This document shows, piece by piece, positions 18,529-36,529 of a stretch of DNA of 40,472 nucleotides. The stretch comes from a virus. The first letter of the stretch is position 1; each line of letters begins with the position of its first letter. A program made the position numbers and the translations under genes. The notes beneath the pieces were generated by a model. The model saw only the letters and a program-made list of their open reading frames with translations, did no database searches and had not been told where the DNA came from. The stretch spans positions 1 to 40,472 of IMG/VR virus record IMGVR_UViG_3300027754_000196, one strand, 5' to 3'.

Positions 18529-19740
18529 TTAATAATTTTTTACAAGTCTAACAGATAAGCCATTTCCTATATAATCACTGTTACTGTAAAAAATACCAGA
18601 GTCATAGTTTAGGATACGGGCTGCACCAAGGTCTACACCGTCTTGTGTAGAACTCCACCAGCGACCTTGATTACCTATTTGGTAGAAACCTCCTACAAAG
18701 TTAACCCAACCACCTGGAAGTCCTGTAAAACATGAACTATTAGTAGCATCTGTGTTTGGAGCATTCCATAGCGTTGTTCCAACTTGTTTCATTTTACCTC
18801 CAGCAACACTTGCTCCACCTAACTCACCTTGAAGAGATGACCATTCAGGACTTGTTGGTACATGCCACCCTACAGGAGCTAGTCCTCTTGAATCATTTAC
18901 AGCATACCAATTGTACAATTTGCCATATATTGCCCCATTTGCTGGATCATTGTTATAATAACGCCATGCTCCTGTAGTCAATGCTTGCCATACGGCAGGA
19001 TCTGTTACTTGAGGAATTACCTCTCCATTTCTATAAGTAGATACGTTTAAATTTTGACAACTCCAAATTTGTGTACCAATTGACACTTCTCCAGCAACAC
19101 ATTGACAGTCTTCTATAAACCTAACAGACAACCCGTTTTTCTTAAGGTTGTAGTTTTTGTCTGCACCGCCACTGTTGTTGTTCAGGTAGCGGAGCCAAGC
19201 AAAGTTTGTATCTTTCTCCGTAGAACTCCACCAGTGACCGTAGTCACCAATGCCGATGCAATTTCCAATGCTGTTGCGGGCACCGCCTGGAAGACCTGTG
19301 AATAAAGATGTATTAGTTGCATCTGTATTAGGAGTATTCCAATGACATAATCCAACTTCTTTCATTTTTCCTCCAGCAATAGTTAAACCACCTAGATAAT
19401 TTGTTAAAACCGTCCATTCTTCATCTGTTGGAAGATGACAACTAACTGGAGCTAATCCACCATGCACTGTATCATTGATGGCATACCAGTTATAGAGTTT
19501 ACCATAAATCGGACCATTTGCTGGATCGTTGTTATACCAACACCATGCTCCTGTTGTAAGTGCAGCCCAAGTACTTGGATCTGTTACTTCAGGAATTGGC
19601 GTACCATCTCTATATGTTGTAACATTTGCGTTACATGTTTTCCACCGTTGCGTTCCTATTAAAACAGAAGTTTCTGTACAATTTGGACACAAATCTGAAA
19701 TAGTTGCTGTGCGATAAACGTTTTTCTTAAAATCTTTCAT
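18529..19740 (-). CDS. Tandem FISUMP-domain protein (adhesin-like fibre or tip)
   Basis: A 403-residue protein made of two copies of the Fibrobacter succinogenes major paralogous (FISUMP) domain at about 25-210 and 216-401. Both have IGTQ.W, T.YR.G..IP.VTDP, WY/YYNNDPANG, IYGKLYNWYA, AGGKMK.VG, NTDATN, FTGLPGG, WWSST and a closing GLSVR. No signal peptide is seen; residues 1-20 are a short lead with CPNC. It sits between two collagen-like fibre genes (6 nt after the upstream one, 20 nt before the next), so it probably decorates or forms a tip of the tail fibres. Part of the first copy is unusually GC-rich for this genome. Receptor or glycan binding is inferred; FISUMP function is not well established. 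Confidence 0.88.
   Translation of the reverse strand: MKDFKKNVYRTATISDLCPNCTETSVLIGTQRWKTCNANVTTYRDGTPIPEVTDPSTWAALTTGAWCWYNNDPANGPIYGKLYNWYAINDTVHGGLAPVSCHLPTDEEWTVLTNYLGGLTIAGGKMKEVGLCHWNTPNTDATNTSLFTGLPGGARNSIGNCIGIGDYGHWWSSTEKDTNFAWLRYLNNNSGGADKNYNLKKNGLSVRFIEDCQCVAGEVSIGTQIWSCQNLNVSTYRNGEVIPQVTDPAVWQALTTGAWRYYNNDPANGAIYGKLYNWYAVNDSRGLAPVGWHVPTSPEWSSLQGELGGASVAGGKMKQVGTTLWNAPNTDATNSSCFTGLPGGWVNFVGGFYQIGNQGRWWSSTQDGVDLGAARILNYDSGIFYSNSDYIGNGLSVRLVKNY
18540..19680 (-). repeat. Tandem duplication encoding two FISUMP domains
   Basis: The coding sequence holds a direct duplication of roughly 560 bases, seen most clearly as repeated protein blocks (NNDPANG, GKLYNWYA, AGGKMK, NTDATN, TGLPGG, WWSST). 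The copies have diverged in sequence and base composition, so the duplication is not recent or the copies have different sources. Boundaries are approximate. Confidence 0.75.
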
Positions 19741-24442: not shown

Positions 24443-26080
24443 TTATGCTAAAATTTCTAACTGAACGTTGTTACCAGAACTTAATAACAATGTGTTCAAG
24501 TATGCTTCAAAGACTGTGTCTTCAGCTTTAGCTACAACTTTGATCAAGTATTGATCGTTGTCCATCATTCCACTTGGGTTAGATTTACGTGGTACACTAT
24601 GTAAGATATGGTATACAACAAATTTAGCACCTTTTTCAAGTTCTGCTAAAGATGTATCACCTAAAACCTCACGTAAACGTACATCTTCTTTCCAGTCTTC
24701 TTGCATGTAACGTTTAGCTAAGATTAACTCTCTAACTAAAGGCTCACGGAATCCTTTACCTTGGAATGTTTGTTGTGTTTCAGAAACAGCAAAACAAGAT
24801 GCACTACAAGCTAATCCAGAATCATCAACAATAGATGCATAGATTTGAATTGGTTGTAATTCAACGTGATCTCTTGGAGAGAAAGAACAATCTAAGAATT
24901 CAGTTTGAGTATATGCTCCAATTAACTCTAAGTAAGAAACAACGTTTGCAATAGCTGCACCAGTAACAGGAACGTATCCAGTAATAAGAGCACCAGTTGA
25001 ATCGTAGTAATCACTGATAATGTTTTCATTGAAAACAGGAGTGATTGAAGTTGTAGTGATATTTGCAGTAGCAGTTGCACTAGCTTCCCATGGAAGGTGA
25101 GCAGCAACTAAAGCAACAGCACCAGCACCTGTAGCAGCAACATAAGTTGAAGCAACAAAAAGTGTAAGAGCAGTAGCAGAAGCAATAGTTTGAGAACCAG
25201 TTGCACTGTATTTATCAACTCTAAATGTAGAACCTGTACCACCGTTACCAGTTAACAATTCAACAATTTTAGTTCCTGCAGCAACATTTGTTCCAGTAAG
25301 TACTTGACCTACAGAGAATACAGTATTAGTTGCAGTACCAACTGTGAAAGTAAATCCAGTAATGTTAGATGCAGTTGCAGATGAAGCAGTTGAAGGAGTA
25401 AAAGTTACTCTTTGACCAGCTTTGATACCTGTTCTGTCAGACATTGTTAAAGCAGCAGCAGCAGTAGCTGTAGCAGTTGCAACAGTAATTAATTTGTTCC
25501 AAACAATTGCTTTAACAAAATCTTTAACTAAAGGATAGTTATTGATTTGATCTTTCCATTGTAACAATACAATGTTAGCATCAACGTCAGGATTTCCAGT
25601 TGCACAACATCCAGTTGTAGCATCTAAAGTTCTGTACAAGTTGTGAGTTAAGAAACGTAATGCAGGAGAACCTTTTACGTCTAAACGCAATCTGTATGTT
25701 GTGTTGCATTTTAATGCACATCCAGGATTGGCAACTTTGATAATGTTTTGTACTGGTAATGCAGGTAAAGTTTTGTAAAACTTACTTACATACTTAGGAT
25801 TAATACCTTTTGATTTTACTGTTTCTTGATATCCACCATGTAAAGATGAACCAAGTTTATCAGAAACTCTAAAAGAACCTTGTGCTAAATACACCATTGG
25901 CGTAGCAGCATAAGTTGGTGTAGTTGTAGTGTCTAACAACAAATTTGTTTTTGCATCTACAACTCCAATTTGACCAGCCGTCAAATCTAAAGTGTTTAAT
26001 GTACCATTACCTACACGGAATGGTGTTGAAGCTGCCGTAGCAACGAGCATCTTTTCAAATGCATGTGGAAAATAACTCAT
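24443..26080 (-). CDS. Structural protein with inserted Ala/Thr-rich beta domain, 545 aa
   Basis: A 545-residue protein starting MSYFPHAFEKMLVATAASTP. The conserved-looking core covers about 1-195 and 370-545, ending in GNNVQLEILA. Between them, about residues 198-345 are almost entirely Ala, Thr, Val, Ser and Gly (TATATAAAALTM...). This part includes a repeat-like beta unit (FTFTVGTATNTVFSVGQVLT, then GTNVAAGTKIVELLTG, then STFRVDKYSATGSQTIAS) typical of surface-exposed phage domains. The core could be a capsid auxiliary or tail/neck protein; I cannot assign the family. Its gene ends the capsid-neck transcription unit, just before a strong terminator. The insertion looks like an added decoration domain. 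Confidence 0.78.
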   Translation of the reverse strand: MSYFPHAFEKMLVATAASTPFRVGNGTLNTLDLTAGQIGVVDAKTNLLLDTTTTPTYAATPMVYLAQGSFRVSDKLGSSLHGGYQETVKSKGINPKYVSKFYKTLPALPVQNIIKVANPGCALKCNTTYRLRLDVKGSPALRFLTHNLYRTLDATTGCCATGNPDVDANIVLLQWKDQINNYPLVKDFVKAIVWNKLITVATATATAAAALTMSDRTGIKAGQRVTFTPSTASSATASNITGFTFTVGTATNTVFSVGQVLTGTNVAAGTKIVELLTGNGGTGSTFRVDKYSATGSQTIASATALTLFVASTYVAATGAGAVALVAAHLPWEASATATANITTTSITPVFNENIISDYYDSTGALITGYVPVTGAAIANVVSYLELIGAYTQTEFLDCSFSPRDHVELQPIQIYASIVDDSGLACSASCFAVSETQQTFQGKGFREPLVRELILAKRYMQEDWKEDVRLREVLGDTSLAELEKGAKFVVYHILHSVPRKSNPSGMMDNDQYLIKVVAKAEDTVFEAYLNTLLLSSGNNVQLEILA

Positions 26081-26114: not shown

Positions 26115-26591
26115 TTATTTCAAAAATAATAGTTTGTACTTGCCTGAGTTTAACGTGCTTTTTACTGTGTCTAAGTCATTGACTATCTCGCTGTAAGGCA
26201 TCTTTAACTGTAATTCACAGATTTCCATATCTAACTCTCTTAAATAAGATAACGCTTCCTCAACAGAATTCAAAACTTTTGGAGGAGTTTCTTCATAAAC
26301 CAATAGTTTTTCTGCTTTTCCTTGGAATCCTTCAGCTAAATCATCAGCATGTCCAGGTAAAGCGTCATATAATTCATTCAATGCTTTGTGTGCAGCAAAT
26401 GCACCTTGTCCAGAAACTCTCAAATGAAGTTTGTGAAATGAGGTAGCAGCATTCATTAAACATGACACTACTTCAGCAACACATTCTTCTAGTGGTTCAT
26501 CTCGTTCTTCACTTTCTTCTCTACTTACAGAACCTGCAGGTGAGAATGTTCTTCTTTTTAGTCTGTATTGACCACTGAAATCCATATCCAT
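26115..26591 (-). CDS. Dps/ferritin-like protein, 158 aa
   Basis: A 158-residue protein, the usual size for Dps. Residues 52-91 match the Dps/ferritin-like pattern: LHLRVSGQGAFAAHKAL, then DDLAEGFQG. H56, H68, D83 and E87 are spaced 12, 15 and 4, exactly as the ferroxidase residues of E. coli Dps (H51, H63, D78, E82). The rest is predicted helical, as expected for a four-helix bundle; the first 35 residues form a charged tail. In bacteria Dps oxidises and stores iron with peroxide and can coat DNA. Here the gene lies 2 nt after the 232-aa neck gene and before the 545-aa structural gene, so it is made with virion proteins. Whether it oligomerises or enters the virion is unknown. Confidence 0.8.
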   Translation of the reverse strand: MDMDFSGQYRLKRRTFSPAGSVSREESEERDEPLEECVAEVVSCLMNAATSFHKLHLRVSGQGAFAAHKALNELYDALPGHADDLAEGFQGKAEKLLVYEETPPKVLNSVEEALSYLRELDMEICELQLKMPYSEIVNDLDTVKSTLNSGKYKLLFLK

Positions 26592-26593
26592 AA

Positions 26594-27292
26594 TTAATCG
26601 TTTTCTTGAGCGTTACCTTTATTTCTTTGATACTGATTGAAAAGTTCTAAGTCTCCTGCAATAATTGCAACAGTAGAGTCAATGATCAACTCAGTAACGT
26701 CATCTTTAAATTCACATGTAACATTTGGTGAAGGTGTACCGTCTTCAAGACTAGCACAACCATCAAATGAAACATATCTTGGTTTTCTGTAATAATATAA
26801 GATAGGAGCTTCAATAGCAAACTTGTTGTTTGTATAGATTCTCAATCTATTACTTTGTAATGTAAAAAACGTTTCAGCCCATTCTACACTTGGTGACTTG
26901 TGAACATCTTCTAAAAGATTATCCACATCAGCTACAGCAGCTTGGTAAACTACCATCCTCCTTGGAGGACAGCAGTTAGACAAAGATCTTACTGAGATTC
27001 TTTTGAAATACAAGTAATTTGCTGGAAGCAAACCAGTTTCATAATAAGAATCCATAGCCGTTATAGTCATTGTAAATGGTGTAATCAAAGGCTGGATGTC
27101 ATCAATTTGCATCTTGCTAGATTCATCAGAAACAGTGTGCCCAGCACCAATATGTATTTGACGTCTGACCCATTCCAATTGAGCTTTGTTAAACGCTTCT
27201 GCTATATGCCAACACTCAATGTTGTCATAATCTTGAGAAGCTAGTTTGTTTAACCTTTCTCTTACCTTGATTTGTAACGTATTATTATCCAT
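26594..27292 (-). CDS. crAss-type neck/adaptor protein, 232 aa
   Basis: A 232-residue protein opening with MDNNTLQIKVRERLNKLASQ, then YDNIECWHIAEAFNKAQLEW, a helical start that I recall as conserved in crAss-like phages among capsid-neck genes. The middle holds beta strands with CCPPRRMVVYQ, and the C-terminal helix contains VTELIIDSTVAIIAGDLELF, a pattern typical of head-tail adaptors. The start overlaps the previous stop (TAATG) and the next gene follows after 2 nt. The adaptor role is inferred from pattern and position. Confidence 0.72.
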   Translation of the reverse strand: MDNNTLQIKVRERLNKLASQDYDNIECWHIAEAFNKAQLEWVRRQIHIGAGHTVSDESSKMQIDDIQPLITPFTMTITAMDSYYETGLLPANYLYFKRISVRSLSNCCPPRRMVVYQAAVADVDNLLEDVHKSPSVEWAETFFTLQSNRLRIYTNNKFAIEAPILYYYRKPRYVSFDGCASLEDGTPSPNVTCEFKDDVTELIIDSTVAIIAGDLELFNQYQRNKGNAQEND

Positions 27293-28314
27293 TAGCTATT
27301 CCAGTATTGTTCAGTTCCTTTTGTTACATCCATTAAGACATCCTCATTCAATGGGTTTTTCAAATACTCAACTACATCAGATGAGTTTTTACCTAACATT
27401 GCAGAAGATTTCATATGGTAAATATAACCATCACCTCTTACAGCAATCAATTTGTATAAGTTAGCATCTTTAACAATTGCTCTCAATTTCAATGTTTCCA
27501 TATCTAAAGCTGCAATATCTAAGAATCTTTGTGCAGTTTTCTTTTTGTCTTTCTCAACTGTTTCACCATTGATGTATGCATCCATGTTACCATAAATAAT
27601 ATCTAATGGTGTAGATTTTTTGTATTGAGAAGAGTTTGCATCTATAACTTTAGCAACTAAGAATAACTTGTTAAAGTTTTTATCAAATAATTTTTGTAAT
27701 TCAGCAGCTGCTTTGTTACGTAATTTTTTAACTTCAGTTTTAATAGAGGCAGTTTCTTCAAATTTATCTAAGTAAAACTTAGCTCCTGTTCCTTGTCCTC
27801 CATTTGCTCTTGCATCATTCAATGATTTAAACACCAATGAGAAACCTCCTGCTTCTATAGCCTTTAACTTGATCAAATCATAAGGGTCATTCGCTGGATC
27901 TAAGAACACAGGTTCATTTCCAAATCTCATTACAATCTTATCCCAGAACTCATCATTTGATGGGTTTAAAAGTTTTACTTTATCCCAAAAGTTTTCATCA
28001 TCAATCTTAACAACATTTGATGCTAAGTCTCTTTCTAATGAAGCAACAATAGTTCTGATCTCTTTAATAGCAGCTTCTCTTTCCTCATCAGGTAAGTTTT
28101 TTACTTCTGGAGCAAACTCATTTAATCCAGTTACATAACGTTTGATACCATTGTATTCTAAACACATCAAAGGTTCTTCATGAAAAACTGATTCAAATAG
28201 AACCATGTTATATTTTTCTAAACCCATGTTATCAATTTCGTCATTGATAAAAGGTCTGATTGCTAATGCACTGTTCTTTTTAAAGGCTTGGTGCTTTTCA
28301 ATAATTGTACTCAT
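27292..28314 (-). CDS. Conserved protein following the capsid gene, 340 aa
   Basis: I chose the ATG at 28314 (MSTIIEKHQAFKKNSALAIR). The longer frame needs a TTG at 28341 that overlaps the candidate -7 box. The 340-residue protein is helical, lysine-rich and contains no recognised domain. Visible parts are a YNGIKRYVTGLNEFAPEV segment (about 55-72), a charged helix (about 75-100), a long basic coiled-coil-like stretch (about 190-230) and a C-terminal beta part with YIYHMKSSAMLG. Its position, first after the major capsid gene and before neck genes, suggests a capsid-associated or head-completion protein. Function not recognised. Confidence 0.72.
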   Translation of the reverse strand: MSTIIEKHQAFKKNSALAIRPFINDEIDNMGLEKYNMVLFESVFHEEPLMCLEYNGIKRYVTGLNEFAPEVKNLPDEEREAAIKEIRTIVASLERDLASNVVKIDDENFWDKVKLLNPSNDEFWDKIVMRFGNEPVFLDPANDPYDLIKLKAIEAGGFSLVFKSLNDARANGGQGTGAKFYLDKFEETASIKTEVKKLRNKAAAELQKLFDKNFNKLFLVAKVIDANSSQYKKSTPLDIIYGNMDAYINGETVEKDKKKTAQRFLDIAALDMETLKLRAIVKDANLYKLIAVRGDGYIYHMKSSAMLGKNSSDVVEYLKNPLNEDVLMDVTKGTEQYWNS

Positions 28315-28338
28315 CTTTTTGTTTTTTGTTGGTTTATG

Positions 28339-28346
28339 CAAATTTA
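28339..28346 (-). promoter_or_regulatory. Candidate -7 box upstream of the 340-aa gene
   Basis: TAAATTTG on the minus strand matches the Bacteroidota -7 consensus TAnnTTTG at every fixed position. It lies about 25 nt before the ATG at 28314, just after the capsid-gene terminator. No good TTTG -33 box was found at the expected distance, so this is tentative. Confidence 0.35.
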
Positions 28347-28514: not shown

Positions 28515-30161
28515 TTAGAAAGAACCACCAGTGATAGGGTTTCTCATAACAATTTTAAGAACCTTAGTTGGATCTTTAACCCAGATAGCTGGCATAGTTT
28601 GAGACATCATTACACGGTATCCATTGAAGTTACCAGATGATGCAAAACCTTGAGAGCGACCCATGTAATCCATTGTTCCATTTTGGTAGAACCATTTCAA
28701 CTCATTGTCCCATTTTAATTTCAACAAGTAAATGTTGTCATTAGTGTTATCAGTGATATCAAAAACAATGAAGTTGTAAGAAGACAATGGGAAACCATCT
28801 ATGATTGGGTTTTCAATGTCATTTGTATGTACATTGTCAAATGCAGAGTTCAACACAAATTTCACATTCGCTAAGAAAGGAATTGTGTAAGAAGTAAATG
28901 CAAAACCAAAGTTTAAGTCCATTGAGTTGTTACCAGAGATAGCACCTAAACCAGATTTGTCCATACTAGCATAAAGCTGAGTACCACTACCTGCTGGGTT
29001 GAATGCTTCTTTTTTGATAGCCTCATTGATCATTTTCATACCAGCCATACCAGTTTGAACAATGATTTGACGAGATGGATCTGGACCTTTAAACTCAACT
29101 TTACCATTGTAGAAGTTGAAAATCTCAGAACGGAATAACTCCAAAGAGAAAGAAGATTTGTTGTAGATACGTTTGAAAGAGTTATCTAATTGACCCCATA
29201 AACCTACAGACAATCTCATATCATCTGGACCATCTTGTTTGATTCTACCACCTTGACCCCACATTAAGTAAGTCTCAATGTCATTTGCAATTTTTGATAA
29301 GTGAGCAGACTCTAACTTAGTTAAGAAAGAACGAGTTAAGTTACCATTGTCATATGCTTTTTTGATGTAATCTTTACCCATAGTTTTCACCATAGAATCG
29401 ATGTTTGTCAAAGAAGGATCAATGTTTTTATCAAATGATCTCCAGATCTCAGTTACAGGAACTGTACCATCTTGATTAATACCACCTTTCAACATTAACT
29501 CAGCACGAGAAGAAACTGAATAGTGAACGTGAGCTTCAGCACCACCAACAAAGTTGTAGTACTCTCTAAAGCCATTTGTTAATTCACCGATGTCAGAGAA
29601 TCTTTCTCCATATTCACCACGGGCAGAACCTTTTCTGAAGAACTTAGTCCCTGGTTTCAAATACTTAACTGCATCTAAATAAGCAGTGTTGTTGTTGTTC
29701 ACTAACTGTACTGTATAGATGTAACCATCTCCAGAAGGAAGAATGTCATCAGCAGTAACGTACATCTCCAAACCTTTGTATTTGTCATAAGTAACGATGT
29801 CACCATGTCCAAACGCACGTTTGTTAACTTTGATTTTGAAAGTTGTACCATCTTGTCCTAACTTAGCGTTAGCTGGTTCAACGTTTTCAGTGATGTAAGG
29901 TAAATCTTGTACAATTGGTGTTTGCCATTTGTACTCTCCACGTGGAGTGTCTACCATAATTGTGTTTTTACCACCAAAAGAAGCCATTTGGTATAAAGGC
30001 ATTTCTACTTTTTGTGTCATTGCCCACAAATCAACTGGTCCTAAATCCATAGGCTCAGCAGATTTAAGCATGTTCACCAAGTGGTAAGAATCCAAGTGAG
30101 AGCTAACTTTATAGTTCGTGTCTCTCAAGAACAATCCATTGTTCATTACAGGTGTACTCAT
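28515..30161 (-). CDS. Major capsid protein
   Basis: A 548-residue protein in the size range of crAss-like capsid proteins. The N-terminal arm (1-75: MNNGLFLRDTNYKVSSHLD, then VDLWAMTQKVEMPLYQMA), a helical and beta alternation through the middle, and a C-terminus with VPVTE-like and NGYRVMMSQTMPAIWVKD patterns agree with an HK97-fold capsid protein as I know it from this group. It lies after portal and scaffold-like genes and is followed by a terminator, as for a highly expressed structural gene. Base composition is a little less AT-rich than its neighbours, consistent with high expression. The call rests on position, length and pattern. Confidence 0.82.
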   Translation of the reverse strand: MSTPVMNNGLFLRDTNYKVSSHLDSYHLVNMLKSAEPMDLGPVDLWAMTQKVEMPLYQMASFGGKNTIMVDTPRGEYKWQTPIVQDLPYITENVEPANAKLGQDGTTFKIKVNKRAFGHGDIVTYDKYKGLEMYVTADDILPSGDGYIYTVQLVNNNNTAYLDAVKYLKPGTKFFRKGSARGEYGERFSDIGELTNGFREYYNFVGGAEAHVHYSVSSRAELMLKGGINQDGTVPVTEIWRSFDKNIDPSLTNIDSMVKTMGKDYIKKAYDNGNLTRSFLTKLESAHLSKIANDIETYLMWGQGGRIKQDGPDDMRLSVGLWGQLDNSFKRIYNKSSFSLELFRSEIFNFYNGKVEFKGPDPSRQIIVQTGMAGMKMINEAIKKEAFNPAGSGTQLYASMDKSGLGAISGNNSMDLNFGFAFTSYTIPFLANVKFVLNSAFDNVHTNDIENPIIDGFPLSSYNFIVFDITDNTNDNIYLLKLKWDNELKWFYQNGTMDYMGRSQGFASSGNFNGYRVMMSQTMPAIWVKDPTKVLKIVMRNPITGGSF

Positions 30162-31571: not shown

Positions 31572-34307
31572 TTACTTGTCATATTTATTCTTATTTCTTG
31601 CTGCAACTTGTAATTGTTTGTTAGCAATTCTCTCTCTTGTTTGAAGTTCTCTTTCTTTTAATGCTCTGTCTTTTTCAGTATTAATTTGCTGTCCTAAAGA
31701 TTGTTCTCTTTTAAAAGCATGATCTCTGTCAGATGCATTCTTTTTATCTAAGTACTCAAGAGTATCTATATAATCTGATTGTTGATTTTCATTTGTATCT
31801 GTTTGTCCTGTATTAACAGCAGCACGAATCTCAGCAACTTGAACCTCAGTATCTCTATTCATAGCATTTTGTTCAGCTTCAAATTTAAGTTTAGAATCTT
31901 GTCTTTCAGTCTCAGCTTGTTGTTGCATTTTAATTTGTTCAGATTGAGCATCTGTTTGTTCACGTCTTGTAGCATCAGATTTTTGTTCCATTGCTTTCAT
32001 AACATGAGTAATCTCAGCCAATGAATCAGCTTTCATTATGTTCCCTAGATCGTAGATAGATGCACCAGCAGTATTGTTAGATAAAGCAAGTTGTCTTATC
32101 TGTTCCATCAACTGACGTTGATTTACTTTAGTAGAAATATAGATGTTCAAATCTCTAGCCAAAAGATCAGTGCCATTCATCTCAAAGTTTACCTGTTCAT
32201 CCATCGTTGTAGTATACTGCAATCTTAGACTAGGAGTAGTTGAGTTATAGAACTGAGCTAAGTCTGTTCTCATCTGATGGATTCTTGGCATTAAGTATTC
32301 AGAGTGCTGTATGAAATACGTTTCTGTTTGACTATAACTCATATTGATTGCTTGTTCTACACCTGTAGCCGTTTCTTGTGCATTTGTTGCACCCATACGT
32401 TGAGGTGTAAGACCGATAGAATCAAAACATTGTTGTTTAAAGTAACCAGCTAACTGAATACGTGACATTAATCTTTCTGTTTGTTGCAAGTTCAATACTT
32501 GGTAATGATTAAAGTTTGTTGCACTTTCTGTGTTAGTTATAGTTGTGTCAAGTGGTAACATTTGAAAATCCTTCATTGCAACATATGCTTTCTGGAAATT
32601 GTTGTGTCCCCAATCTTCTCCCATTGAGTGTCTTGGTAAAGCATTCTGATCTAACATGATTACTGTACCTAACTCATCAATAAGAATATCAGCTATCTGA
32701 TTGTTAACCAGGTTGTAACCAATTTGATAAGGTTTCATTCTATCAACCATTGATCTTGACTTACTATTACGATCAGAAAAGATTGCTCCTTCTACAGGTA
32801 ATTTACAACCATATAATGTAAAGTCTCCTTTGAATTGAAACTTAACAGGTTTGGCATTTAGATAAATAGGATTCAAACCAAAGTTGTCAGCGTTACCATA
32901 AAATGCTGGTCTGTTTGGACCAATCTTAGTGCCACCCCAAACTTCATTAATCCAGATCCAGTCTATGTGTTCACCAAATACAACTGTTTCACGTGTTTTG
33001 TTTTTTATAACGGATGTGTCATAGATAGGTTTATCAGTAACCTTGTACGATTCATCAACAATAGTGTCAATCATTTCACCAGTCTCAAGAATTTTTGTTA
33101 AGTGACCTAACATCTTTTGTGACTTCCAGTAAACAGTTGACACACGCAAAAGTGTTGTATCACCAAACTCTTGCATATCTTCAGACTCATGTAAGATTTC
33201 TGCAATAACATCATAACTAGTACCACCAGTTCCTAAACCAAATGTATCATTAAAAGATAACATCTGTCTCATTCCTAAAGAAGGTCCTTGTGTATTCCAT
33301 TCATGTGATTTAGTTGCATCATAAAAAGAACCATCATTTTGTAAACCAGGTAAAATATAACCAGCAGATTTTACTGGATAGATTGCTTCTAAAGATCTCA
33401 ACTGATCATCATCCATCATCCATCCATATTTATCTATAACGTCTGCTAACGTCATCATGTCAACCTTACCAGCGTAATTTGATTGTGACACATAACGTGC
33501 ATCAGGAGATTTATGATAGAATGTAAGCAAAGGATTCCACAGTTCAATCTCATAATCTGTTTCATTCATTTTAAAATGCCAAAACTCTCTATCAGTGATA
33601 AGCATATCTCTGAATGCCATGTTTTCCATTTCTTTCATTTGGAACTTTTCTACATCAACTTGATGTTGGTGAGAAGCCCATTGTTCAACCATTGATCTGT
33701 AATCTTTTTTAAAGAATGATTCAATCTCTGGTAATGTTTTAATACTATCTGGAGTCATCATCTGTTCTGCTTGTTTAGCACCCTCTTCAGATTCAGTATC
33801 AATACCCATTTCTTCAATCTTTTTTCGCATGAGTTCTTCTCCTCTTGCAACAAGAGTTTGTTCAATCATCTTTCTTTTCTCATCAATCATTTCATTGTAA
33901 GAAAGATCATCAACAGCTCTGTATGTAATCTTGTCATTTCTTTTTGCAAACTCACCACATAATACATTGATTACGTTTGGTATAATAGGGAAGAACTTAA
34001 GGTCAAAAGCTGATTCATCTTGTGTTGTTAATATGTCGATCATTTCTGCAACCTCATTGTCTTCCTCAACAATATAGTCTGTCTTGTCTATAATACCATT
34101 TGCAAGTTTGTAGTTCTTTAACAAACGTCTTGCATTACGTCTTAATTGTTTAAGACCTTGCATTTCAAACCAATCAATATTCCAAGCTGCCCAGAGTTCA
34201 TCTTTTTCTACCTTAGGTAAAAATTGAATAGGTTGCGTCAATGTACCCATTCTATGGTACTCAGACTTTGCCCCATTCTTTAACTGCATTGCATTATATA
34301 CTTTCAT
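31572..34307 (-). CDS. Portal protein
   Basis: A 911-residue protein, in the range of the long crAss-like portals. The N-terminal segment (about 40-75) is helical and basic. IPNVINVLCGEFAKRNDKIT (about 108-127) is typical of crAss-like portals. The middle has a long beta/alpha body, including QLAGYFKQQCFDSIGLTPQR and ERLMSRIQ (about 620-650), expected around the clip and stem region. The last 170 residues are a very charged, Gln-rich coiled coil ending in QVAARNKNKYDK, matching a long barrel or helical crown. It follows the terminase by 11 nt, the canonical order. The twelve-subunit ring is known for the family, not seen here. Confidence 0.87.
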   Translation of the reverse strand: MKVYNAMQLKNGAKSEYHRMGTLTQPIQFLPKVEKDELWAAWNIDWFEMQGLKQLRRNARRLLKNYKLANGIIDKTDYIVEEDNEVAEMIDILTTQDESAFDLKFFPIIPNVINVLCGEFAKRNDKITYRAVDDLSYNEMIDEKRKMIEQTLVARGEELMRKKIEEMGIDTESEEGAKQAEQMMTPDSIKTLPEIESFFKKDYRSMVEQWASHQHQVDVEKFQMKEMENMAFRDMLITDREFWHFKMNETDYEIELWNPLLTFYHKSPDARYVSQSNYAGKVDMMTLADVIDKYGWMMDDDQLRSLEAIYPVKSAGYILPGLQNDGSFYDATKSHEWNTQGPSLGMRQMLSFNDTFGLGTGGTSYDVIAEILHESEDMQEFGDTTLLRVSTVYWKSQKMLGHLTKILETGEMIDTIVDESYKVTDKPIYDTSVIKNKTRETVVFGEHIDWIWINEVWGGTKIGPNRPAFYGNADNFGLNPIYLNAKPVKFQFKGDFTLYGCKLPVEGAIFSDRNSKSRSMVDRMKPYQIGYNLVNNQIADILIDELGTVIMLDQNALPRHSMGEDWGHNNFQKAYVAMKDFQMLPLDTTITNTESATNFNHYQVLNLQQTERLMSRIQLAGYFKQQCFDSIGLTPQRMGATNAQETATGVEQAINMSYSQTETYFIQHSEYLMPRIHQMRTDLAQFYNSTTPSLRLQYTTTMDEQVNFEMNGTDLLARDLNIYISTKVNQRQLMEQIRQLALSNNTAGASIYDLGNIMKADSLAEITHVMKAMEQKSDATRREQTDAQSEQIKMQQQAETERQDSKLKFEAEQNAMNRDTEVQVAEIRAAVNTGQTDTNENQQSDYIDTLEYLDKKNASDRDHAFKREQSLGQQINTEKDRALKERELQTRERIANKQLQVAARNKNKYDK

Positions 34308-34318
34308 ATGTTTCTTTT

Positions 34319-36529
34319 TTATCTCATGTTTTTAAATGCACTTCTGTTTCTTTGTTGCCCACTACCTAACTTTGAGTTGCCATTAGTGGTTCCAATGTGA
34401 CGAAATGGATTCATGAATAAGTTAGCATTTTTATTTGGTTTTTGCAAGTTATTACTTTCTTCTCGTTCAACACGTTTAGTATATCCTCTGTTTGATTCTT
34501 GAACCTTTGCAAAGGCAACCAACGAACAAAATGCTACAAGTCTATCCACGTTAAGCCCATCTCTGTAGGCAAGCATTTCTTTTAGTAACATTATATCAGG
34601 TATTCTCTCAATACCATGTCTTACTTTTGTAATGGTTCCATCTGGAGCACACTCAGTATCAATCTCTTCCACAATAAACTGTACACCATAAGATATAAGA
34701 TTTCCTTTAAACAACGTTCCAGTATTCTTCCAACCATATTCTTGGAATACATTGGCATTACTCTGTAGTTCTTTTAAGAAGAGAATTTGCGTTTTAGGTA
34801 CAAGGTACTTTTGCTTTCTTCTTTGAATCATGTGTTGGATAAATAAACTAACGTTGTTCTCAACAATAGTCCAAGCGTTGTATGCTTCAATGATCATTTC
34901 TAAACGCTCATGCGTTTTTGTTAAATCGTCAAACCTACCACACCATGCTGCAACTAAACCATCACGTTCAATATGCTGTTCAATTGAACCATCTTCTTTA
35001 TGTCTTGTTACCTCTTGAGAAGTCTTATAAACAAAAATACTACACAATGAATCTGATGTTGTTGTCTTTCCTTCTGCCACAGGGTCAATAGAGGCGTAAT
35101 ACATGCCGTGTGTTGGATTTGCATGTGGTCTTTCATAAATTACTACCACTCCTTCTTTTTCCTTCGTCTTAGGGGATATTGGGAATTCAGAGATGGGAAT
35201 TCTTGATGAAGGTTTAAACTCAATTTTACCTTCAGCGTTTCTTTCTAAATCTACAAACTCTCTAAAATATTCTTTATCTTCAATTCTTCTTATCTGTTGT
35301 GTGACAAGATATGCTGGAAACTTAGAATCTTTTCTTGAGGCAAATGCTTCTTCTATATTAGTTGGCTTTTGTGAAATACGCAATTGATAATCCTCAGGAT
35401 CAAGAGACTTTTTCCAAAGTTCTCTTTCTTCAAAGATCATTTTTAAAGCGTCTTCAACCAATGAATTTCCATACACATCTATGCAAGGTTGCATTGACCA
35501 TTGTTCTGGTATGAATAAACCACACTCAGCATGTTCTCCTTCAGCATTCAATAACTTTGTTGGCACAGCCAACACATCTTTACTGTCAGGATTAAGAACC
35601 ATTTTCTTTAATGGATCACATTGTTCTAAGTTACCTACTGATCCAGCAACTACAAACATACCTGTGTATATCATACCTGATTTCATTGCAGGTAATAAGT
35701 ACTCTACAGTCTCATTCATCTTTGGAGCAATTCCTGCTTCTTCATGAAAGAAGAACGTACAAGGACCCCCTACACCGTTTGTTGGATCTTTTTCTAATAC
35801 AAGACCCATGATTGTAGACTTTAAACCTTTATCACGTTTTCTTCCACCTTCATTTACTTCAATCTTTTGTTCCCAGTTTAAAACTTTATCAGGATTAGAT
35901 GGTCTATACCAAGCAGTGTTAACGTTGAGGAAGTTACGATACTCCTCAAGGAACCGCCAGGTTCCTTTTTCGCCTATGTAATCCTTTAAAGAACCTGCTA
36001 TCTTATTAACGGATCCTTCATCAAACCAGTAGTTTCCTATGAGGATAGCTCCATGAAAGTATGACGAAGCAATCTGTCTTTTCTTTAATATTGCAGCATG
36101 TTTAAAACTATACTTTGCAAGTTCTTCATACAGAGACATATGATACTGAGCGTCACGGATATCTACAAAGCCAAATTTGCTTATCTCTTTGTTATATATT
36201 GGTAAGAAGTTTAACCACATGTAGTAATACCGTGTTAAAAACCACGTCTTACCATTGTGTTTATAGATGGCACCTTTGGTGCATTTTATCTTTTGATCAT
36301 CCCAGTATGTGATGTAATCTTTAGATCTAAATGGAGCAACACAATACACTTTGTTTTTTGTAAACAATCTTGATTGTTCATTGAACATTGTAGAAGACTC
36401 ATCAAATTCATATTCTCCTGGTTCTTTAAAACAGGACCATAAGAAAGCCACGTACTCTTCTCTTGTTTCAAAATCTGTTGTTGACCATTCTTTTAAATCA
36501 TAGTCATATGTTGGGATTGTTAAGAACAT
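34319..36529 (-). CDS. terL: Terminase large subunit (packaging ATPase and nuclease)
   Basis: A 736-residue protein. The ATPase part has a Walker A-like ILKKRQIASSYF (147-158), where a Lys/Arg-rich loop replaces the classic GKS as in many terminases. It has a Walker B with catalytic Glu in CTFFFHEEAG (257-266). The RNase H-like nuclease part has acidic residues D482 in YYASIDPVAEG, E557 in WTIVENN, and a third Asp near D645 or D662 (GLNVDRLVAF). The N-terminal 130 residues include aromatic motifs common in crAss-like terminases. The C-terminal 60 residues are basic and Asn-rich. It overlaps the 64-aa gene by 10 nt. It pumps DNA into the prohead with the portal. Confidence is high from the paired motifs and the adjacent portal. 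Confidence 0.92.
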   Translation of the reverse strand: MFLTIPTYDYDLKEWSTTDFETREEYVAFLWSCFKEPGEYEFDESSTMFNEQSRLFTKNKVYCVAPFRSKDYITYWDDQKIKCTKGAIYKHNGKTWFLTRYYYMWLNFLPIYNKEISKFGFVDIRDAQYHMSLYEELAKYSFKHAAILKKRQIASSYFHGAILIGNYWFDEGSVNKIAGSLKDYIGEKGTWRFLEEYRNFLNVNTAWYRPSNPDKVLNWEQKIEVNEGGRKRDKGLKSTIMGLVLEKDPTNGVGGPCTFFFHEEAGIAPKMNETVEYLLPAMKSGMIYTGMFVVAGSVGNLEQCDPLKKMVLNPDSKDVLAVPTKLLNAEGEHAECGLFIPEQWSMQPCIDVYGNSLVEDALKMIFEERELWKKSLDPEDYQLRISQKPTNIEEAFASRKDSKFPAYLVTQQIRRIEDKEYFREFVDLERNAEGKIEFKPSSRIPISEFPISPKTKEKEGVVVIYERPHANPTHGMYYASIDPVAEGKTTTSDSLCSIFVYKTSQEVTRHKEDGSIEQHIERDGLVAAWCGRFDDLTKTHERLEMIIEAYNAWTIVENNVSLFIQHMIQRRKQKYLVPKTQILFLKELQSNANVFQEYGWKNTGTLFKGNLISYGVQFIVEEIDTECAPDGTITKVRHGIERIPDIMLLKEMLAYRDGLNVDRLVAFCSLVAFAKVQESNRGYTKRVEREESNNLQKPNKNANLFMNPFRHIGTTNGNSKLGSGQQRNRSAFKNMR

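Follow-up and report, generated by a model that had tools for sequence, protein, structure and literature searches.

The 40,472-nucleotide stretch of viral DNA analysed here (the window; IMG/VR record IMGVR_UViG_3300027754_000196) raises the question of why a phage should keep a gene for a Dps-like protein among the genes of its virion. A preliminary description had placed a Dps/ferritin-like gene at 26115-26591, beside a neck gene and within the structural operon. This open reading frame does exist, and it is read from the minus strand, as are the other genes of its block, which are arranged as follows.

24443..26080, minus strand: g545, a conserved late-block gene and the downstream edge of the slot (synteny)
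26115..26591, minus strand: Dps-like ferroxidase-type protein of 158 aa, DUF5856 / PHROG 858 (ORF, Pfam, PHROG, AlphaFold2 and Foldseek)
26594..27292, minus strand: neck232, a tail-barrel ring protein and the upstream edge of the slot, with a gap of 2 nt (AlphaFold2 fold)
27292..28341, minus strand: g349, the gene after the major capsid protein (MCP), at the place of PhicrAss001 gp33 by order (synteny and order)
28515..30161, minus strand: MCP of crassvirus type (Pfam Crass_capsid, E 6e-30; PHROG 11589)
31572..34307, minus strand: portal protein (PHROG 6547, E 1e-91)
34319..36529, minus strand: terminase large subunit (PHROG 6681, E 3e-66)

With its crassvirus MCP and ring-protein tail barrel, the window is from a crAss-like phage (order Crassvirales or close relatives). 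The upstream neighbour, earlier taken for a neck protein, is a tail-barrel ring protein by fold, the AlphaFold2 model of neck232 matching chains D/E/F of PDB 7qoj with E values of 6e-12 to 8e-10 and TM scores of 0.68-0.74, and the Dps-like gene thus lies inside the virion-gene block. neck232 also resembles gp062 of Cellulophaga phage phi4:1, which was annotated from MS proteomics; sequence-based PDB profile searches with neck232 and g545 returned nothing useful. In PhicrAss001, the MCP gp32 is followed by gp33, the ring proteins gp34 and gp35, and the auxiliary capsid protein gp36 (PMC10172136). By order only, g545 stands at the place of gp36; it was rejected as a gp36 homologue, with no detectable sequence similarity, and it has no detectable similarity to phi4:1 gp061 either. 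The N-terminal part of g545 resembles a protein of Leptolyngbya phage Lbo-JY46, in which the g545-like gene is the large gene directly after the neck232 relative. Among the 80 contigs found first, the Dps-like gene comes after neck232 wherever neck232 was seen, with one gene standing between the two in L042 and L045. Its co-directional operon and the 2-nt gap upstream suggest that the Dps-like gene would be expressed late.

Some further features were noted. A tail-region gene of the window (18529-19740, minus strand) encodes two Fib_succ_major domains (E 4e-73), which are common in Bacteroidota and give a hint of the host. Between g349 and neck232, L020-L081 and others hold 1-4 kb of small, very Lys-rich proteins, which the window does not have; several families of these end in a GGS(I/V)KxKK-type sequence, and they look like DNA-condensing proteins. 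A conserved AT-rich element (..ctatattata.atatat..), possibly a late promoter, is found after the slot gene and upstream of g545 in L056, L209, L037, L224, L101 and L213.

As to the identity of the protein, a search for phage families by profile, suggested beforehand, assigns it to Pfam DUF5856 (E 7e-12; 46.6 bits against a cut-off of 34.6) and to PHROG 858 (E 1e-15), whose name, 'starvation-inducible transcriptional regulator', is derived from Dps. The general profiles stay below their cut-offs, Ferritin PF00210 with E 2e-4 (21.5 against 24.5) and NCBIfam Dps with E 0.007 (16.1 against 300). By phmmer, the stretch from H56 to E87 aligns with the same region of solved Dps proteins, the best PDB chain having an E value of 0.004. 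The ligands of E. coli Dps, H51, H63, D78 and E82 with D67 as the fifth, have the following counterparts.

26424..26426, minus strand: H56, ferroxidase ligand (E. coli Dps H51), invariant in 62/62 and in the distant set
26388..26390, minus strand: H68, ferroxidase ligand (E. coli H63), invariant in 62/62 and in the distant set
26376..26378, minus strand: N72, a substitution at the place of the fifth ligand (E. coli D67), N in 61/62
26343..26345, minus strand: D83, ferroxidase ligand (E. coli D78), invariant in 62/62 and in the distant set
26331..26333, minus strand: E87, ferroxidase ligand (E. coli E82), invariant in 62/62 and in the distant set

The four ligands are present with the spacings of 12, 15 and 4 that had been read from the sequence, equal to those of E. 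coli Dps, and show no variation in 62 distinct sequences of the crAss-like clade, the window included. In a distant set of 12 sequences, which spans the jumbo phage phiR1-37, the T4-like CC31, podoviruses, the gut crAss phage cr108_1 and a Dependentiae MAG, the only invariant columns are H56, H68, D83, E87, G91, D141 and L154. The position of N72 is D, E or Q in some distant DUF5856 homologues, and is acidic only in some. The dN/dS of the gene is ~0.08-0.24. A chance match of the motif was rejected on the invariant ligands and the fold, and a recently acquired host-type Dps on the lack of a close cellular match. Of the two loci on genome contigs, L088 is a distant DUF5856 relative only, and L087 (RFPL01000035.1) belongs to a phage: neck, g349 and g545 are present, and this contig, a fragment of a crAss-like phage, was probably assigned wrongly to the Sphingomonadaceae MAG in which it is binned.

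The fold expected of such a protein, a four-helix bundle, was obtained with AlphaFold2 from 42 window-type sequences, with helices at residues 34-58, 64-93, 110-130 and 134-155 (pLDDT 80), preceded by a tail.

26493..26591, minus strand: disordered N-terminal tail, residues 1-33 (pLDDT <50 at 1-4 and 6-30; first helix from 34)

When the model was compared with the PDB by Foldseek, the matches were mostly Dps (E ~2e-3, probability 1.00, TM ~0.6-0.67), and in the viral BFVD they were further Dps-like proteins of phages, a DNA-binding protein from crAss phage cr108_1 among them. Three BFVD entries of uncultured phages named prohead protease (A0A6J7XDU5, A0A6J7WPK9 and A0A6J7WIS1) partially match the Dps fold and are possible Dps-protease fusions, a lead based on the name. 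In Dps the di-iron site sits between two subunits, so closeness of the four ligands is not a matter that a monomer model can decide. Such an inter-subunit site is described for Dps in the available text of PMC10002758. The Dps/ferritin-like reading of the gene is supported by its predicted four-helix fold, its retained ferroxidase ligands and its place in a virion-gene block.

How regularly the place is used was examined at 134 distinct junctions, counted as distinct ring-protein sequences: 100 hold a Dps-like gene, 26 a ferritin gene, two both and six neither. No gene family besides Dps-like and ferritin was found between neck232 and g545 among the junctions examined. The ferritins were recognised in L188, where a gene of 198 aa replaces the Dps-like gene, and in L045, where one of 208 aa accompanies it; both products are bacterial non-heme ferritins (PF00210, 7.6e-21 and 6e-23), and a slot ferritin matches H. 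pylori ferritin 3egm with an E value of 6.6e-23. A scan with a slot ferritin gave 66 loci, and those in crAss-like contigs are mostly in the same slot. Their ferroxidase residues E17/E50/H53/E94/E126/Q127/E130 are invariant (27/27). Relatives without the Dps-like gene came to light in a sample anchored on the MCP. In some close relatives (L163, L177 and L179) the neck gene adjoins g545 and the slot is empty; in phi4:1 and Lbo-JY46 the next large gene comes directly after the neck232 relative, without a Dps-like gene separating the two, and PhicrAss001 and phi14:2 have no Dps-like or ferritin gene at the corresponding junction. The slot gene is thus accessory.

The two kinds of gene have replaced each other in the slot about ten times or more. 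On the ring-protein tree, a quick tree that leaves the exact number of changes uncertain, 17-20 changes were counted, or 21 for all states taken together, and at least 10-12 Dps/ferritin gains or losses are forced by well-supported branches. One exchange can be followed at the nucleotide level: L056 (Dps) and L209 (ferritin) are ~95% identical in DNA through codon 9, the last of MLKR, are then unrelated, and become similar again after the stop codon of the slot gene. L101 and L213 show the same pattern, with homology ending at about codon 9. L001 repeats the window region in the opposite orientation.

These data bear on whether the protein is merely a part of the particle, with the ferritin fold serving as a building block of neck or tail and doing no iron chemistry. 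The position of the gene, with a ring protein on one side and a conserved late gene on the other, and the loss of the fifth Dps ligand (N72) would agree with such a recruitment, but none of the four Dps ligands and none of the ferritin ferroxidase residues varies. Moreover, some slots are vacant, and cages of two types, presumably unequal in size, replace each other there; a structural joint is unlikely to withstand such changes. As neither slot family shows variation in its catalytic residues, a purely structural, non-catalytic role is disfavoured, and we regard it as highly improbable.

What the exchanges leave in place is the beginning of the protein.

26553..26561, minus strand: LKR core of the tail motif, residues 11-13, common to the slot ferritins of relatives (motif, PSSM and pairwise comparison)

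In slot Dps-like proteins, a brief variable N-terminal segment precedes (M/T/L)LKR(P/D), and the same element is found on slot ferritins. The strict motif is present in 93 of the 104 slot Dps-like proteins and in 23/27 slot ferritins against 0/20 ferritins elsewhere (Fisher 1.3e-9, uncorrected for shared ancestry). With a PSSM made from the Dps tails alone, 17 ferritins, every one of them from the slot, outrank all 2747 other ORFs; in several slot ferritins the motif has a weak form only. The bare LKR triad was rejected as proof of a tag, being too loose, and the PSSM and the comparison inside and outside the slot were used instead; plain LKR near the N-terminus also occurs in g349 (24/118) and PPase432 (11/19). 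A second shared beginning is found in the portal-slot group (L236-L239 and L244), where ferritin and Dps genes lie directly after the portal gene or one gene further: both products start with (A)LDIN-type peptides, which occur in 0/2747 other ORFs. In L245, a related contig, the ferritin next to the portal gene lacks this peptide, and further crAss-like contigs (L207, L229 and L235) have ferritin genes upstream of terL without the LKR tail. The GTLLYG N-terminus of podovirus Dps was discarded as a general tag, being absent from other genes.

The shared peptide could be a mere seam, with no docking involved: the region of translation start, conserved and coupled to the gene before it, would be where recombination crosses over. 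In most loci the gene starts 2-5 nt past the stop codon of the ring protein, the homology in L056/L209 and L101/L213 extends across the start of the gene as far as about codon 9, and the LKR codons are mostly TTA AAA AGA. However, L, K and R are maintained with different codons (CTT, CTA, CTC and CTG; AAG; CGT and CGC), the distance of the motif from the start codon varies, and in the portal-slot group the tail is common to two neighbouring genes. Since the triad is written with several different codons, the coding sequences point to a constraint at the protein level, and a seam is an improbable explanation.

The reading that we favour, with about even confidence, is that the virion block holds a fixed slot for a ferroxidase-competent cage of the ferritin superfamily with an N-terminal docking tag, most likely to the virion. 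The slot would encode a Dps-like mini-ferritin, as in the window, a true bacterial non-heme ferritin, or both, and its product would assemble into a hollow cage that oxidises and stores Fe(II), using up H2O2 or O2. The hydrophobic-LKR-type peptide, on a disordered, outward-pointing tail, would be the docking tag; it would stay when the cage is exchanged and would fix the late-made cage to the virion, most likely at the tail barrel, the portal or a cargo zone of the capsid interior, so that particles would carry a cage for handling iron and peroxide. The N-termini of Dps and ferritin cages alike point outward, and the shared N-terminal peptide therefore looks like a docking tag. What favours the virion as docking site is that its gene block includes the slot and that crassvirus particles hold cargo in zones of capsid and tail (PMC10172136), and further that the Dps-like g280 of phiR1-37 is annotated in its record as 'phage structural protein' and the Dps-like gene of podovirus ctEw122 comes directly after the portal gene. 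The cage is thus probably associated with the virion.

The main rival to virion docking is docking to DNA by the basic tail. The cage would then be a late intracellular antioxidant, bound outside the particle to phage DNA under replication or packaging, removing Fe(II) and peroxide to the benefit of DNA and host, and the place in the virion block would only give high late expression. The invariance of the ferroxidase ligands in the Dps-like and ferritin families fits this role. The N-tails of Dps serve DNA binding, as in E. coli Dps, and the LKR tail, basic and similar to that role, could bind DNA rather than a virion protein. Some phage homologues, moreover, lie outside virion blocks, beside holin or rI. 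In the available text of the respective papers, the Dps that occurs together with catalase in Gratiaviridae/Flandersviridae gut phages (Benler 2021, PMC8008677) and the Dps of Lactobacillus phages (PMC6669764) are read as protection from oxidative stress. An antioxidant in the cell, however, leaves unexplained why the slot is used by the ferritin superfamily only (128/134 junctions) and why the portal-slot group has a different shared tail. It also does not account for the same tail on true ferritins, which are not known as DNA binders. We consider it distinctly possible, if doubtful.

Compared with bacterial Dps, the window protein is alike in its four-helix fold and in its H/H/D/E ferroxidase ligands with E. 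coli spacing, but it is only marginally similar in sequence, has N72 at the fifth ligand, is shorter between helices B and D, and has the LKR tail motif and a family-specific C-terminus (PYSEIVN...YKLLFLK). By profile score it is a member of the DUF5856 / PHROG 858 phage proteins; Pfam gives DUF5856 no function, whereas here the family is linked to the Dps ferroxidase site and to a slot among virion genes. The slot ferritins are clear members of the bacterial non-heme ferritins (FtnA), with all ferroxidase residues, but their N-terminal part is longer, with 24-57 aa ahead of the LNYR motif, and bears the Dps-like tail motif. Encapsulin systems place a ferritin-fold cargo with a short terminal targeting peptide beside an HK97-fold shell. 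The putative phage loading would resemble them in the peptide only, as a terminal peptide common to cargo proteins of different families; unlike in encapsulins, the tag stands at the N-terminus and has another sequence, and the shell would be that of an infectious virion. The Ferrojan horse hypothesis invokes iron in phage tails and siderophore receptors, without a ferritin cage; slot cages would likewise put iron into phage particles.

That phages can encode Dps-like proteins is already known (PHROG 858; PMC8008677; PMC6669764). For the Gratiaviridae/Flandersviridae and Lactobacillus phage Dps, the available text of these papers describes no ring-gene position, exchange with ferritin or shared tag (PMC8008677, PMC6669764), and no relevant paper on ferritin in Crassvirales was found in the open-access literature. 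To our knowledge, therefore, the dedicated slot, the repeated exchange of Dps and ferritin, and the shared tail are new.

Should the favoured reading be true, crAss-like phages of the environment would, as a large group, package or dock cages that oxidise iron. This would bear on the iron of viral particles, on oxidative defence in infection, and on how protein cargo finds its way to the crassvirus particle. Two cage types swapped behind one short peptide make a testable loading tag, and Pfam DUF5856 gains a likely chemistry. More tentatively, and with somewhat less than even confidence, crassvirus-type virions may load ferritin-superfamily cages, 12-mer mini-ferritins and 24-mer ferritins being freely exchangeable, by N-terminal tags whose type differs by phage group. 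Phage particles would then have a natural system for loading cargo, parallel to that of encapsulins, and would carry mineral iron.
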